From Burkholderiales bacterium PBB1 (GTDB lineage: Bacteria; Pseudomonadota; Gammaproteobacteria; Burkholderiales; Burkholderiaceae_C): 64,000 bases of DNA. The stretch's first letter is position 1, and each line of letters starts with the position of its first letter. Under the pieces are notes generated by a model. It ran no database searches. It saw only the letters and a program-made list of their open reading frames with translations, and had not been told where the DNA came from. The stretch is taken from the NCBI GenBank assembly GCA_002255905.1, contig NKIN01000002.1, positions 558,001 to 622,000 on the forward strand, read 5' to 3'. Of this stretch, positions 26,979 to 34,232 are shown one piece after another. The translations under genes and the position numbers were made by a program.

Positions 26979-27779
26979 ATGTACGTCGATTCCCATTGCC
27001 ACCTGAGCTATCCCGAGCTGTCCGATCGGCTGGCGGAGATCCGAGCCGACATGCAGACGGGCGGGGTGGGGCGGGCACTGTGCATCTGCACCACGCTGGA
27101 AGAGTTCGATCGGGTGCATGCGCTGGCGCTGGCACACGACAACTTCTGGGCCAGCGTCGGCGTCCATCCTGACAACGAAGGTGTGCAGGAGCCGACGCTC
27201 GACGATCTGCTCCGACGCGCCTCGCTGCCGCGCGTGGTGGCGCTGGGCGAAACCGGGCTCGACTACTACCGTCTGAATGGGCGCTCCCAGGCCGAGATGG
27301 AATGGCAGCGCGAGCGCTTCCGCGTGCACATTCGCGCCGCGCGCCGCACCGGGCTGCCACTGGTGATCCACACCCGCAGCGCCTCACGCGACACCCTTGA
27401 CGTGTTGAGCGCCGAAGGTGAGCGCGACGTCGGTGGCGTGTTCCATTGCTTCACCGAAACCATGGATGTGGCCCGCGCAGCGCTGGATCTGGGCTTCTAC
27501 ATCTCGTTTTCAGGCATCCTGACCTTCAAGAACGCGAAGGACCTGCGTGAGGTGGCGCGCTTCGTGCCGCTGGACCGCTGCCTTATTGAAACCGACAGCC
27601 CTTACCTGGCACCGGCACCGTTTCGTGGCAAGACCAACACGCCGGCGCTGCTGCCTTGGGTGGCCAAACAGCTGGCTGAGCTGAAGGGTCTGAGCGTGGA
27701 AGAGATCGGCCGCATCACCTCAGCCAATTTCGAATACTTGTTCAGAATTCCACCGGTCGCATGCGATGAAAACAGCTAG
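26979..27779 (+). CDS. TatD-family metal-dependent hydrolase
   Basis: A 266-residue TIM-barrel hydrolase of the TatD/YcfH class (deoxyribonuclease-like). Metal-site motifs: DSHCHLS at the start, ALGETGLDYY near 87, LPLVIHTRSA near 126, GVFHCFTE near 149 and IETDSPYLAP near 203. It is the usual partner of tmk-holB-pilZ. Its 3' end overlaps the ankyrin gene by 14 bp. Confidence 0.94.
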   Translation: MYVDSHCHLSYPELSDRLAEIRADMQTGGVGRALCICTTLEEFDRVHALALAHDNFWASVGVHPDNEGVQEPTLDDLLRRASLPRVVALGETGLDYYRLNGRSQAEMEWQRERFRVHIRAARRTGLPLVIHTRSASRDTLDVLSAEGERDVGGVFHCFTETMDVARAALDLGFYISFSGILTFKNAKDLREVARFVPLDRCLIETDSPYLAPAPFRGKTNTPALLPWVAKQLAELKGLSVEEIGRITSANFEYLFRIPPVACDENS

Positions 27780-28416
27780 AAAAAGCTTTAGCTTTATTCT
27801 CTATCTGACTGTCACGTTGTTTGTTTTTCCGGTGATGGCTGGATCGTATGACGACTTCTTCACGGCCATCAAACGGGACCATCGCCACACCATCGAAGCG
27901 TTGTTGCAGCGCGGATTCGACCCGAACTCGGTCGATGAAACCGGTCAGCCAGGCATCATCGCCGCGTTGCTCATCGAGTCTTACGAGGCCGCAGATGCGT
28001 TGGCCAACAGCGACAGATTGCAGCTGGAAGCTGTCAATCAGTCGGGTGAAACGGCGCTGATGATGGCCAGTCTGCGAGGCCAGGCGGCGCTGGTCCAGCG
28101 GCTGCTGCAACGTGGGGCCGCGGTGAACCGGGTCGGTTGGTCGCCTTTGCACTACGCCGCGACGGCGCCCGATGAAACGTCGATGAAACTGCTGCTGGCG
28201 CATGGCGCCGCGGTCGACGCCCGCTCACCGAACGGCACGACGCCCCTGATGATGGCGGCCGACTACGGGCCATCTGCGTGCGTCGATCTGCTGTTGGCTG
28301 CTGGTGCCAGGGTTGATCTGAAGAACGATCTGGGTCTGACCGCGATCGACTTCGCCCGCCAGCGCGGGCGTGATCGACTGGCCGATCGCCTCAGCCAGCG
28401 TCTTCCGACGCCGTGA
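27766..28416 (+). CDS. exported ankyrin-repeat protein
   Basis: A 216-residue protein with a signal peptide (FSFILYLTVTLFVFPVMA) and about five ankyrin repeats; clear ones are NQSGETALMMASLRGQAALVQ, WSPLHYAATAP and NGTTPLMMAADYG. It likely acts in the periplasm as a protein-binding scaffold. It overlaps tatD by 14 bp, and the same pair is seen in other Burkholderiales. No partner can be named. Confidence 0.88.
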   Translation: MKTARKSFSFILYLTVTLFVFPVMAGSYDDFFTAIKRDHRHTIEALLQRGFDPNSVDETGQPGIIAALLIESYEAADALANSDRLQLEAVNQSGETALMMASLRGQAALVQRLLQRGAAVNRVGWSPLHYAATAPDETSMKLLLAHGAAVDARSPNGTTPLMMAADYGPSACVDLLLAAGARVDLKNDLGLTAIDFARQRGRDRLADRLSQRLPTP

Positions 28417-28980: not shown

Positions 28981-30066
28981 CTATCTGGCAGCCACGGCCA
29001 CGGGATTTGCGGGCGCTTGCGCGGCCGGTGCCTCGACCGCAGAGGCTGCGAGCGAAGGTCCCTGTACGGCCAGTTCTGGGTGATCCTTCAGCATGCTCAC
29101 GCCATAGAGCGGTTTGAACACACCTTGGTGACATGTCTGGCAGTTGGCCTTGGCCACATCGCCGGTTGGGCCCAGTCGATGCGCCGGGAACACCTTGGTG
29201 ATCGGCTCCATGTACTGATTGTTCAGATCACGCACCATGCGGATGCCATACCAGGCGGTTGCGCGTTGTGGCGGGCTGGTTTCCCAGGCAGCGAACGAGC
29301 GGCTGTTATGACAGTAGGTGCAGTTGACGCCCAGAGCCGTCGACATGTGCGTCATCAGACTGTAGGTCCACTCGGCCTGCTTGATGTTGTGCTTGTTCCC
29401 GGTGGGCAGAGCCGTCGTGCCGTGCACACGAATCTCCTGCGACCCCAGCAGGAAAGGCGTGAACGGATCTTCCGGCAGCGACGACAAGTTCGCTACCTTG
29501 GACACCGTGTTCTGCCCTGCCCTGTCACCCAACAAACCCACCGACCGCTTCTCGGGCTCAGCCTTGAACCACACGTTGGCCGGGATGTTGTTTCCGCGGT
29601 GGCAGGTGTAGCAGGTCACACCGGTTTGGGCGACGTGGGTCTTGTAGTCGGCGTTGATCTTGCGGGTCATCTGCAACATCTTGCGCGCCACCACCTTGGT
29701 GTACTTCTCGTCCAGCGCGAAGTTCTGTGGGTTGTGGCAGTAGGTGCAGCCTTGTTCAGGTGCCACCCATGCCGTCATGGAAACCATCAAACGCGTGAAC
29801 TCGCCCAGGCTGAGATCGTTGAGAACCTGCACGTTCTGGTAGATCGACGCTGCTGCCGGGCCACCAGGTGCTGCAGGCGGTATCGCTGCCGGCACCTGGT
29901 TCAAAGGCACCTGTGCATCCAGCGTACGGGGGTTGTAGATCTCTGCCATGCCCGTGCCGCGGAAGCCGTGCTGCACCGCTTCGATCGGCGGTCTTTCGCA
30001 ACCGGCCAGCAGTGCCGCGGCAGCGATCAGGATCAAGCGCAATGTCATCGTGAAATTCCTGTTCAT
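28981..30066 (-). CDS. pufC: reaction-centre tetraheme cytochrome c subunit
   Basis: A 361-residue lipoprotein that re-reduces the photo-oxidised special pair. The signal peptide ends in the lipobox LLAGC (lipid-modified Cys near residue 23). Four heme-binding motifs are present in order: CTYCH, CYTCH, CTYCH and CQTCH. The C-terminal tail is Ala/Pro-rich. The ATG at 30066 overlaps the pufM stop (ATGA) and has GGGAG 7 bases upstream; an ATG at 30048, also with AGGA upstream, is an alternative. The protein requires the Ccm system encoded 10 kb away. Last gene of the puf operon. Confidence 0.97.
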
Positions 30067-31037
30067 GGCTTGACTCCCTGCAGGGTCGAGGGATCGATCA
30101 CCGGAGCCCACACGGCGGGGTACATCGGTGCGACATGGTGTTTCACCGCCCACAGATACCAGTTGTCGACCACGGTGCCCGTGAGAAGGATGCCGATGCC
30201 GCCGGTGAGCGGTGTCAGCACTGCAAACCACCACGCCCAGCGGTGGATCGATTCCATCGTGGCGTTGAAGCCCATGGTCCAGCGCCAGAACAGCGCGGCG
30301 CGCTCCGAAGCGGTTCCGCGATCGGTGATCTGCTCGATTTCACGTTCACCACCGAAACGGCTGACCGCAAGGATGGTCGCTCCGTGCATCGCAAACAGCA
30401 GCGCCGAGCCGTAGAGGAAGGCAATCGACAGCATGTGAAACGGGTTGTAGAACAGGTTGCCGTAGCGGATCGAGAAAGCTGCAGTCCAGTCCAGGTGCGG
30501 GAAGATGCCGAACGGCACGCCCTCGCCCCAGTTGCCCATCAACACCGGACGGAAAAAGCCCAGCACCAGGAAAAGCCAGATCGGCGACAGGAAGGCCCAG
30601 GCCACGTGCGTGCCCATGCCCAGCTCGCGGGCGCGGCGGTAGGTTCGTGCCCACCACAGCAGGATCGACATCGTTAGGAACAGCCCGGCAATCTGCCACC
30701 AACCGCCCTGGTTCAGCGGCGCTAGGCCCAGCCCATTGCTGGGGGCCGGTGGCTCCAGCGCCAGCCAGAACAGCTGACGGATGAACTGGACGGGATCCCA
30801 GTTCACCGATGCCAGCATGTTGAAGCCCATGATGTTGATCGCGAGCGTGCCGAAAAAGATCGACGCCAAACCGAGCGCGCCGAGGTACAGCGGCCCGATC
30901 TGCGCGTTGCCGATGCGCCCGATCAGATGGACGAGAAACGGCTCGCCGAGACGCGTGCTCTCTGTTTTGTGCTCGATGCCGTGATGGATCGGGCCGACCG
31001 CTTGTACGGCGGTGAAGATGTTCTGGTATTCAGCCAT
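30063..31037 (-). CDS. pufM: photosynthetic reaction centre M subunit
   Basis: A 324-residue, five-helix membrane protein. It carries the special-pair region [23 protein letters not shown] with the bacteriochlorophyll His and a downstream iron-ligand His, and [22 protein letters not shown] near the quinone site. The C-terminal extension beyond VVDNWYLW is typical of species with a bound PufC. A strong AGGAGA ribosome-binding site lies 6 bases before the ATG. It follows pufL by 24 bp. Confidence 0.98.
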
Positions 31038-31061: not shown

Positions 31062-31886
31062 TCAATGCCAGATGGGAAGATTCAGCCACCAGCCCCACCA
31101 TTCGGGCCAGCCGCGTGTCCAGAATGGGCCGCTGATCACGATGCACACGGCGCTCCAGAACACGGCGGACAGCGCCAGAAAGAGGCCAAGTCGGTGGATG
31201 CCCAAGGTGCCGATCGAGTAGCCGATGGTGTCGCGGAAGAAGGTGTCCTCGTGCTCAGGCGCCTTGACGGTTTCGCCTGCCTTCGGGTTGGTGGCCGACA
31301 GCACCAGCGCACCGTGCAGTGACAAGGCCAGACAGGTGGTGAAGAAGAATGTGATGGCCAGCATGTGGGCTGGGTTGTAGTGGAAGTGCAGGTATTGGTA
31401 CCCGGTATTCGAAACCCAATCGAGGTGACTCAGAATACCGTAGGGGAATCCGTGGCCCCATGCCCCCATCAGGATTGGCCGAATCACGACCAGCGTGACA
31501 TAAGCGAATATCGCGAATGAAAACGCAACCGGCACATGCAAGCCCATGCCGAGTTTTCTACAGATCTCGACTTCGCGCAGTGCCCAGGATCCGAATGCGC
31601 CGATGGCACAGACAGTAATCAACTGCCATAAGCCACCTTCGCGCAGCGGCGCAAAGCCCAGCCCGTATTTGAGATCAGGTGGCGCAATATTGATCTGCCA
31701 CACATTCCACGTGCCACCGATGGCGGCGCCCCACAGTATCAAGGCAGTGCCGAGAAAGGTGAAGAATAACGTCGTGACGCCGAAGAATCCGACGTAGAAC
31801 GGCCCGACCCAGAAATCGAAAAGATCCCCTCCGACCAGGGTCCCTCCGCGGATACGGTATTTTCTTTCAAAACTGAGCGTGGCCAT
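31062..31886 (-). CDS. pufL: photosynthetic reaction centre L subunit
   Basis: A 274-residue, five-helix membrane protein, partner of PufM. Typical segments are [30 protein letters not shown] at the N-terminus (shown here only as a landmark), [18 protein letters not shown] near 170 with the special-pair His, and LGIHRLGLF near 230 with the iron-ligand His. The ATG at 31886 ([10 protein letters not shown]) has GGAGGAG 6 bases upstream; the TTG two codons earlier is less likely. Confidence 0.98.
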
Positions 31887-31945
31887 GGGCAACTCCTCCG
31901 GGCCCCAGGCAATACAGGATTGCCGAGGGCGAAAATCATGTTGGC

Positions 31946-31998
31946 AGACGGGGCCGGGCGTGAGCCCGCGCCGCGTCTACCTCGGGCGCAAGCCCGAT
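31946..31998 (-). promoter_or_regulatory. two intercistronic stem-loops between pufA and pufL
   Basis: The 116-bp gap between pufA and pufL holds two hairpins in the transcript. One has a 6-bp stem TCGGGC/GCCCGA at 31982-31997, just after the pufA stop. The other is long, 31946-31978, with an inner CGGGC/GCCCG stem around GTGA and an outer AGACG/CGTCT arm, interrupted by a bulge and a mismatch. In Rhodobacter, hairpins at this place protect the pufBA part of the mRNA from 3' decay, giving an excess of antenna over reaction-centre transcripts. The same role is inferred here. Confidence 0.75.
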
Positions 31999-32002
31999 GC
32001 TG

Positions 32003-32203
32003 TCACTTGACGACGGGTGACGTCGTTTCTGCAGGCATGGTCGCATGCTGCGCCAGCTTGGCCCTGGAGTTCGCGCCATCGAGCCAGTTGAAGGTCGATG
32101 TGCTCAACAGCACCAGATGAATCAGCACAGCCAAACCGAACAGGAATACGCCTTGCGCAACCATCGTACGAAGCGGGTCGAACAAACGCCAAATTCTCCA
32201 CAT
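32003..32203 (-). CDS. pufA: LH1 light-harvesting alpha chain
   Basis: A 66-residue antenna polypeptide with the alpha-chain start [13 protein letters not shown], one membrane helix, and the bacteriochlorophyll-ligating His29 in [12 protein letters not shown], then NWLDG. The polar C-terminal tail of about 20 residues is longer than in Rhodobacter. AGGAGA lies 6 bases before the ATG. It is separated by only 10 bp from the extra beta-like gene upstream. Confidence 0.96.
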
Positions 32204-32213
32204 GGTCTATCTC

Positions 32214-32438
32214 CTAAAGTAAATGGGACATGAAGGTGTAAACCGCACCTTTTACGCCACCGATCAAAGATTTCTCTGCTTCAGACCCGGGTAACCAGGA
32301 ACGCCATTGCCATGTCATCGCTTGCGCGCACAAGGCAACCACCAACAACAAGCAAAAGCTCACCGCAAAGATGCCAAGATACGCTTTTGAGTCGTTCTTT
32401 AATATCTGCTGCAAAGAGAGATTAGTTGTTTCAGGCAT
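32214..32438 (-). CDS. extra LH1-beta-like single-helix protein lying between pufB and pufA
   Basis: A 74-residue ORF packed between pufB (24 bp away) and pufA (10 bp away), with an AAGGGG ribosome-binding site 6 bases before its ATG, so it is very probably translated. One membrane helix spans about residues 20-41. Residues 38-49 (AQAMTWQWRSWL) match the beta-chain end of PufB ([12 protein letters not shown]) without gaps: A, W, W, R, W and L are shared, but the bacteriochlorophyll-ligating His38 is Gln39 and the conserved His20 is Leu21. A 25-residue tail (PGSEAEKS...FMSHLL), absent from PufB, follows. It may bind pigment through Gln or act as a pigment-free ring element, comparable in concept to PufX, PufY or the LH1 gamma chain. 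Not recognised as a known gene. Confidence 0.8.
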   Translation of the reverse strand: MPETTNLSLQQILKNDSKAYLGIFAVSFCLLLVVALCAQAMTWQWRSWLPGSEAEKSLIGGVKGAVYTFMSHLL

Positions 32439-32753: not shown

Positions 32754-34232
32754 TCATGCCGGCTCTCCCTGCCTCATGGCGTCACGCGAGGTCGCCACAC
32801 GTGCCGCGGTGATACGGTCTTCGCCAGCCTTGCGGGCATCACGTTCTGCGCGGTCGCGCAGACGCTTTGCCGCCGAGATCTGCACCAGGACCGGCTCGGT
32901 CTGCACGATGTCGTCGAGCAGTTCCTGCGCGTCCGTGTCCCATGGGCTTGGCGCCTGGCCATCGATGCGAGCGGGTGTCGGGTCGACGCGGTCGAGGTCC
33001 GTCCCCAGCGGAAGGATGTGGAACAACGCATCGAACAGCGCGTTGCAGAACTCCTGCACGATGTAGGTCGCGCCGGAGTAGCCCATGAACGGCGTACCGG
33101 TGTGACGGCGGATGATGGGCAGTGGGAACGACGCCGGGATGAAGCTCGCCTTCATCATCGAACCACCGCCGCATTCGGCGAGGTAGATGCGTTCGTTGTA
33201 GCTGCCGTACATCACCAACGGTGTCTTGTCCTTCACCAGCTGGCGCACTTCTTCGTTGTTCGTCTTGGCGCCCGGCAGCCGCGAGACCGCAAACTGGCAG
33301 GGCAGTCCCATCTCGTCTTCGAGGAAGTGACGGATGCCGCGGGTGTAGGTGTCGTTGGCAACGACCGCAAAGCTGGCCGTGCCGAAGAAGTCTTGGGTGA
33401 CCGAGCGCCACAGGTCCCAGATCGGCTTGATGGTGGTGTGCTTTTCCCGCTCGATGAAGGGTTCCGGGTCCAGGCCCAGCAATTCCCCCAGCTTGCGCAA
33501 GAACTTGGTGGTGCTGTGCAGGCCGATCGGCGCCTGCAGGTACGGCCGATCGAGCGCCTCGCACAGCATGCGGCCGAACTCGCGGTACATGCAGATGTTG
33601 ACGTCGGCTTCGACCAACCTCGACACGTCGGCCAGGTGGCTGCCGAGCGGGAACGTCATGTTCACTTCGGCGCCGATGCCCTGAACCAGGCGGCGAATCT
33701 CTGCGAGATCGCTCGGGCAGTTGAACGTGCCGTAGCACGGGCCGATGATGTTGACGCGCGGCTTCTCGCCGGCAGGGCGCTCCGCATAGGGCTTGCGCGC
33801 CGGCACCTTCTTCATGCCGTACTCGCTCCATAGCCAGAACATCGCGCGATTCGCGCATTGCCACTGGTCTTCGTCGATCGTGCGCGGCAGGAAACGCTGG
33901 ATGTTGGTGCCCGACGGCGTGACGCCGCCACCGATCATTTCGGCGATCGACCCGGTGACCACCACGGATGGCAAATCGGGGTCGAGCGCGGCATGCGCGC
34001 GGCGCATGGAGCCTTCGGTGCCTTCGCGGCCGAGCTGCTCTTCAGCCAGACCGGTGACGACGATGGGCAACTCATGCGGCGGCAGCGCGTCGGTGTAATG
34101 CAGCACCGAAGTCACGGGCAGGTTTTCGCAACCGACCGGGCCGTCGATGACCACCTGCAGCCCCTTGATGGCCGTGAAGACGTACACGGCACCCCAGTAG
34201 CCGCCGGCGCGATCGTGATCGAGTACCAGCAT
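32754..34232 (-). CDS. bchZ: chlorophyllide a reductase subunit Z
   Basis: A 492-residue nitrogenase-like catalytic subunit, which with BchY forms the heterotetramer that reduces ring B of chlorophyllide a. Putative Fe-S/catalytic Cys motifs are [20 protein letters not shown] near 30 and [14 protein letters not shown] near 163. The C-terminal 80 residues are charged. The ATG overlaps the bchY stop by one base (TGATG). As in other purple bacteria, bchZ directly precedes the puf genes, and a puf promoter may lie in its 3' part. Confidence 0.97.

Follow-up and report, generated by a model that had tools for sequence, protein, structure and literature searches.

The 64-kb stretch of DNA analysed here (the window) carries on its minus strand the genes bchX-bchY-bchZ-pufB-ORF74-pufA-pufL-pufM-pufC in that order, and it raises the question of what ORF74, a short open reading frame lodged between the genes for the two LH1 antenna polypeptides, encodes and does. 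ORF74 (32438-32214, minus strand, 74 aa, ATG start) is separated by 24 bp from pufB (32609-32463, minus strand, 48 aa), which encodes a tail-less LH1-beta protein with both His residues (PF00556 E 6.3e-14; NCBIfam NF040862 E 8.1e-25), and by 10 bp from pufA (32203-32003, minus strand, 66 aa), which encodes LH1-alpha (PF00556 E 8.7e-14; NCBIfam NF040861 E 1.1e-18). An earlier inspection of the letters of the window alone (the sequence-only reading) had described such a 74-codon frame, and its particulars were all found on the minus strand: both gaps; the frame's own ribosome-binding site (GGAAGGGG) 5' of the start codon; a segment, residues 38-49 (AQAMTWQWRSWL), identical to the end of PufB at six of 12 positions; replacement of PufB His38 by Gln39 and of His20 by Leu21; and a 25-residue C-terminal tail beyond residue 49.

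The surrounding genes are those of a photosynthetic locus. The names bchX, bchY and bchZ are our own assignments from position and sequence; bchZ (32754..34232, minus strand) lies immediately upstream of pufB, and no pufQ is present between these two genes in the window. The region between pufA and pufL (31895..32010, minus strand) folds into hairpins of -59.3 kcal/mol (z -3.39; none of 200 shuffles is equally stable). Beyond them lie pufL (31062..31886, minus strand, PF00124 match, start taken as the ATG of MATLSF, nearest solved reaction-centre L chain E 7.1e-159), pufM (30063..31037, minus strand, PF00124 match) and pufC for the reaction-centre tetrahaem cytochrome (28981..30234, minus strand, PF02276 E 2.6e-146; these coordinates span the entire open frame, and the real start is probably internal).

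The sequence-only reading was aware of no earlier description of a gene here, but the gene has in fact been named before. According to the accessible text of PMC12817894 (2025, citing Nagashima 1994), the puf operon of Rubrivivax gelatinosus contains two open reading frames without known function, one of which, ORF2, lies upstream of pufA; the same text compares ORF2 with PufA and with the PufA2 of Gemmatimonadota, notes its missing His and rejects an origin of PufA2 from ORF2. Position and sequence identify this ORF2 with the gene described here (74 aa in locus L070; loci L070 and L072). The ORF74 of Roseateles depolymerans (PMC10037100, accessible text) is taken to be the same gene by its locus order. 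The accessible parts of these two open-access papers do not state the likeness to LH1-beta, the order-wide spread or the exclusion of tailed PufB reported below, and subscription papers may say more. What is new here is thus the kinship with tailed LH1-beta, the one-tail layouts and the variable ligand site.

ORF74 is a real gene under purifying selection

ORF74 is matched in 17 of 60 relatives (own genome included) at E<=3.3e-12 by tblastn, and all 17 are among the 18 of these 60 genomes that carry the reaction-centre (RC) family PF00124. In the 18th RC-positive relative, G013, there is no strong ORF74 match and just a single RC subunit was matched, perhaps because its contig is cut. The 42 RC-negative relatives gave no strong tblastn match to ORF74 (best E 0.0157). 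In a sample of 300 genomes of the order, Burkholderiales by their record titles, PF00124 is present in 38, and the ORF74 profile at E<=0.001 matches 38 of the 300, a figure that includes matches to PufB and was hence split by inspection. This placed ORF74 in 29 of the 38 RC-bearing genomes, always between pufB and pufA where the locus is readable, so the homologues at this place in related phototrophs that the sequence-only reading proposed to look for are there. One RC-bearing genome (G182) could not be assessed, since its contig stops 179 bases past pufM, and the other 37 show three layouts: ORF74 with a tail-less PufB (29 genomes), a tailed PufB alone (five: G064, G288, G318, G201 and G214), and a tail-less PufB accompanied by an upstream PufQ-like ORF, with ORF74 absent (three, all of one genus: G104, G223 and G254). 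A further genome (G309) has ORF74 and no RC match, and its contig stops just past pufA.

A scan of named records found 189 relatives and kept 80 loci, which include those of Rubrivivax gelatinosus, R. benzoatilyticus, Rivibacter, Piscinibacter, Ideonella, Aquincola and Sphaerotilus; the record titles point to Betaproteobacteria, apart from a handful that are vague or strange. Two ORF74 loci (L056, L110) come from metagenome bins that bear the names Bordetella parapertussis and Candidatus Fonsibacter lacus, probably through mislabelling or faulty binning. Wider samples gave matches in 6 of 274 genomes of the class and 15 of 299 of the phylum, RC-bearing or not; among the class and phylum matches listed, no His-less ORF lies between pufB and pufA outside the window's order. 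Those matches from outside the order are tailed or tail-less PufB proteins, PufQ-like ORFs and one chance match (L179); three others are own-order genomes (G000, G084 and G298), and L178 is empty at the threshold used. The plasmids searched for ORF74 contained no match.

The gene order pufB-ORF74-pufA occurs in 120 of 131 locus rows, and the other 11 are accounted for by overlapping frames sorted by start (five), a cut locus (one), a second antenna pair (two) and tailed PufB (three, L136-138). Among 93 loci that differ in their ORF74 DNA, the median gaps are 29 bp (17-54) before and 12 bp (10-26) after ORF74. Median dN/dS among 12 near relatives (66 pairs) is 0.096 for ORF74, 0.071 for pufB and 0.124 for pufA; ORF74 is a real gene under purifying selection.

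Kinship with tailed LH1-beta and distant likeness to PufQ-like proteins

In a phmmer search of PDB sequences the best match of ORF74 is the LH1-beta chain 8z81_B (E 1e-9), followed by further LH1-beta chains, and a 12-row ORF74 family profile finds 40 distinct PDB sequences at E<=1 that are named light-harvesting or antenna proteins. These searches and the conservation of the frame place the LH1-beta likeness proposed by the sequence-only reading beyond chance. Family models respond less: PF00556 does not match ORF74 at E<=10, the NCBIfam PufB model scores it at 17.9 bits (cut-off 61), and Pfam PufQ (PF05398) matches neither ORF74 nor, at E<=0.001, anything in its own genome. Pfam DMT_YdcZ scores ORF74 at 24.7 bits against a cut-off of 24, which we read as chance resemblance among membrane helices and which could lead automatic annotation to mislabel the gene as a transporter.

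The PDB chains that resemble ORF74 over most of its length are tailed LH1-beta proteins (8z81_B, 75 aa; 7xxf_B, 73 aa, which we take to be from Rhodopila globiformis) that share with it W-R-x-W-L/I-P and a C-terminal tail. The tailed PufB proteins of the genomes examined retain both His residues and the N-terminal motif (below), unlike ORF74. Profile comparison by hhalign ranks the relatives of ORF74 (92 rows) as follows: tailed LH1-beta (12 rows) at probability 99.65 (score 121, 67 columns), PufQ-like proteins at 97.9 (score 66.6), tail-less PufB at 95.9 (score 48.7, a value depressed by the shorter PufB) and canonical PufQ at 18.9 (score 21.3). In a tree of 72 representative proteins (ORF74 52, tailed PufB 12, PufQ-like 8; 74 columns, unrooted, without tail-less PufB or canonical PufQ), all but one of the ORF74 rows (51 of 52) group in a single clade (100/100) and the PufQ-like rows in a second (96/93), the bootstrap not having settled; the sole ORF74 row outside its clade, G087, sits on a very long branch. 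The position of ORF74 among the tailed PufB proteins is left undecided by this tree. Sequence comparison thus supports well the view that ORF74 is a paralogue of LH1-beta nearest to the tailed form. A plausible history would be duplication of a tailed LH1-beta gene, after which PufB lost its tail and ORF74 its His residues; we infer this direction only, because the tree is unrooted, although tailed PufB exists outside the order too.

PufQ (PF05398) resembles ORF74 in being small, single-helix and puf-encoded with a conserved C-terminus, but its gene lies upstream of pufB and its PufQ-like relatives form a separate clade. Because profile matches also reached PufQ-like ORFs upstream of pufB, a PufQ that had moved between pufB and pufA was considered as an origin of ORF74; the profile scores and the tree reject PufQ as its nearest relative. 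In PMC5725709 (accessible text), PufQ is a protein of a single membrane helix with a conserved C-terminal end; it is missing from some purple bacteria and has been connected with ferrochelatase and pigment synthesis. PufQ-like ORFs upstream of pufB were seen in L160, L161, L175 and L142-L144; among them only the L175 protein matches Pfam PufQ, weakly and under the cut-off (E 0.016), and the L160 protein has a His at the beta-His column. The PufQ-like proteins align with tailed LH1-beta at hhalign probability 97.85 (canonical PufQ 0.36), a resemblance that offers a possible origin for PufQ, which may be an old offshoot of LH1-beta.

Tallied over 126 ORF74 loci, repeat copies of one place among them, PufB lacks a tail in 122, is uncalled in three, is absent from the stretch in one and is tailed in none. 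The five RC-positive genomes with tailed PufB and no ORF74 carry on that PufB a tail resembling the ORF74 tail, and one genus (f30 g57) has both layouts: tailed PufB alone in G064, G288 and G318, and ORF74 with tail-less PufB in G110, G153 and G192. A PufQ-like profile run on the window's own genome gives ORF74 as best match (E 7.7e-9), then the PufB region (2.4e-4) and a chance-level match (0.353), and detects no separate pufQ; in the five genomes with a tailed PufB, the top match of this profile is that PufB. Where a genome of the order has the PufQ-like layout (three genomes), the PufQ-like protein bears the tail. Outside the order PufQ-like genes coexist with tailed PufB (L160, L162, L173, L175), and the "one tail" rule is therefore limited to the window's order. 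In most phototrophic genomes of the order the His resides on tail-less PufB and the tail on ORF74, as if a duplicated gene had divided its labour. Carriage of the tail by PufB or by its His-less paralogue, never by both, provides a handle on the function of the LH1-beta tail.

The pigment site and the tail

In LH1, Trp residues C-terminal to the pigment-binding His contact the acetyl group of the pigment, and the C-terminus of beta is periplasmic. His20 and His38 are present in all 78 distinct tail-less PufB proteins, and His occurs at ORF74 position 39 in none of 92 homologues, where the residue is Gln in 79, Thr in five, Glu in two, Ser in two, and Gly, Cys, Val or Ala in one each. (The 92-row counts omit two tailed PufB proteins with His, L136 and L138, and three ORF74 homologues, G084, G110 and G087.) On a quick tree built with column 39 omitted, Gln and non-Gln residues interchange at least 11 times. 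Since position 39 varies and includes Val, Ala and Gly, pigment ligation there cannot be obligatory, and Gln as a required pigment ligand is disfavoured by the 13 homologues without Gln; its retention in most homologues nevertheless speaks for some use of Gln39. Around this position the site is well kept, with Ala at -4 in 92 of 92, Ala, Gly or Ser at -1 in 86, Trp at +6 in 91, Arg at +7 in 92 and Trp at +9 in 90. The surface facing pigment or alpha is thus retained while the ligand is free to vary.

Over the whole protein A35, R46, P50, G51 and V66 are invariant in the 92 rows, and W45 (91), V62 (91), W48 (90), Y67 (90), S71 (90) and M70 (89) nearly so. These residues make up a W45-R46-x-W48-L-P50-G51 motif and a conserved set in the tail (V62, V66, Y67, M70 and S71). 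The N-terminal SGLTxxEAxEFH motif of PufB (G10, L11 and E15 in 77 of 77; F19 and H20 in 78 of 78) is not retained in ORF74, and an ordinary alpha-beta contact on the cytoplasmic side is therefore unlikely, which leaves room for a transient role in assembly. Among the omitted homologues, that of G084 has Gln39 and a change of Arg46 to Gln. Two others were seen to be divergent: G110 (L149) has Leu39 and has lost Trp48 (Trp+9), and G087 (L146) has Ser39 and a PufQ-like tail end.

Hydropathy places the beginning of the ORF74 membrane helix at about residue 19. AlphaFold2, at a modest mean pLDDT of 66.9, predicts helices at 5-46 and 57-73; the helical moment of the tail exceeds chance only slightly, a value as high being reached by 127 of 2000 shuffles. 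Foldseek found no PDB match to this very simple AlphaFold model, and neither phmmer nor the family profile found a solved chain of the ORF74 protein in the PDB. Among the open-access papers listed for a betaproteobacterial core-complex structure, none brought one up; the PDB matches carry no organism, so a solved betaproteobacterial complex without ORF74 could be among them.

Expression and possible roles

A 1-kb transcript of Roseateles depolymerans carries pufA, pufB and ORF74 together, and in a sigma-factor mutant these three are the loci that drop the most, to 0.71, 1.09 and 2.34% of their level, respectively (PMC10037100, accessible text). As this organism has no LH2 genes (same source), ORF74 is independent of LH2. 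Median Shine-Dalgarno energies are alike, at -8.4 kcal/mol for pufB, -7.7 for ORF74 and -7.3 for pufA; locus by locus, the ORF74 site is the weaker one in 52 of 92 loci when set against pufB and in 33 of 92 when set against pufA. A low ORF74 copy number set by a weak ribosome site was considered and is not supported by the medians, though the site is the weaker one relative to pufB in those 52 loci. In Rhodobacter sphaeroides stem-loops 3' of pufBA raise the pufBA share of the mRNA (PMC5725709, accessible text), and the pufA-pufL hairpins of the window could similarly protect a pufB-ORF74-pufA segment. The shared transcript, the ribosome sites and the hairpins argue for many copies of ORF74 over one per RC.

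Most likely ORF74 is a pigment-ligand-free derivative of beta that acts, by way of its conserved tail, in the LH1-RC core or in its building. The more specific proposal, that this LH1-beta paralogue divides its labour with PufB by serving in the LH1 ring as a structural subunit of beta type that has no pigment ligand, seems to us evenly balanced between true and false. Such a subunit would be made from the pufB-pufA mRNA (a transcript known in Roseateles only) from a ribosome site of similar strength and would form a beta-like membrane helix whose C-terminus faces the periplasm. It would keep the beta surface toward alpha and pigment (Ala-4, Trp+6, Arg+7 and Trp+9) and as a rule hold no bacteriochlorophyll of its own. 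Its tail helix may dock on the LH1-RC core from the periplasmic side, and the protein may space or locally loosen the LH1 ring, which could in turn let quinone pass. We found no protein-level support for ORF74, and the three genomes of one genus that have neither ORF74 nor a tailed PufB count against a subunit role.

The main rival is a PufQ-type assembly or pigment-supply factor, that is, a His-less beta-like helper that would steer tetrapyrrole flux or deliver pigment to nascent LH1 and not stay as a lasting subunit. That ORF74 is the best PufQ-like match of a genome with no separate pufQ, and that the one genus just mentioned has a PufQ-like gene upstream of pufB, speak for this, as do the profile relationships of the PufQ-like proteins to both ORF74 (97.9) and tailed PufB (97.85), the absence of the PufB N-terminal motif from ORF74 and PufQ-like proteins alike, and the single helix, conserved C-terminus and patchy occurrence of PufQ itself (PMC5725709, accessible text). 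However, ORF74 is nearer to tailed LH1-beta than to the PufQ-like proteins and has no Pfam PufQ match, and the five tailed-PufB-only genomes, whose best PufQ-like match is PufB, indicate that an antenna protein can carry the tail; we regard a PufQ-type role as a possibility to be taken seriously though doubtful. Far less probable is a true antenna beta in which Gln39, or a water molecule, serves as the bacteriochlorophyll ligand and absorption is tuned by alternation of ORF74 with PufB: the prevalence of Gln and the kept Ala-4, small -1 residue, Trp+6 and Trp+9 would suit it, but the 13 non-Gln homologues with their repeated changes, the L149 protein with Leu and no Trp+9, and the loss of the second His as well all speak against it.

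PufX, protein W and LH1 gamma are single-helix accessory proteins of LH1-RC, and an analogue of these, present in one or few copies, might open or seal the ring for the passage of quinone. Such a gate would be one form of the structural subunit, so the likelihoods of the two overlap, and those of all the readings need not sum to one. The single membrane helix of ORF74, its lack of a fixed pigment ligand and its place in the puf operon speak for a gate, and helices of this kind sit in the open rings of other species (PMC10214105, accessible text). Against it, phmmer at E<=10 found no PDB chain named PufX, protein W or gamma (a weak test for short proteins), and co-transcription with pufBA (Roseateles; PMC10037100, accessible text) and a similar ribosome site are unlike a one-per-RC protein; pufX, moreover, differs in position, being the last gene of the puf operon in Rhodobacter sphaeroides (PMC5725709, accessible text). 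We consider the gate unlikely, though less so than the antenna beta. A chance ORF or decaying duplicate, which the shortness of the frame and the missing PF00556 match might suggest, is refuted by conservation, namely the dN/dS value, the invariant residues and the strong match in 17 of 18 RC-positive but 0 of 42 RC-negative relatives, and can for practical purposes be dismissed.

Taking the structural subunit further, we offer as a tentative and probably less than likely proposal that phototrophic Burkholderiales have an LH1 of three polypeptides (alpha, tail-less beta and several copies of a tailed pigment-free beta) made from one protected mRNA, with PufQ as an older offshoot of beta. If so, the tail function of beta has moved to a dedicated subunit, and if PufQ is also such an offshoot, antenna proteins have yielded pigment-free partners twice. 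Were ORF74 a subunit, the two-polypeptide picture of LH1 would fail for much of the order, to which the laboratory species Rubrivivax gelatinosus and common freshwater phototrophs belong. As a part of the photosynthetic core complex, or a helper to it, that would so far have been overlooked, ORF74 can now be tested.

A link of ORF74 to PufC was considered as well, and it does not discriminate, since the tetrahaem cytochrome is present in 21 of 21 genomes tested regardless of layout. Near pufC and convergent with it, the plus strand carries an ORF of 216 aa (27766-28416) whose repeats we take to resemble ankyrin repeats. On a second contig the window's own genome has a further PF00556 antenna pair (G000:C16:145404-145646; loci L003 and L004), which is probably peripheral LH2.
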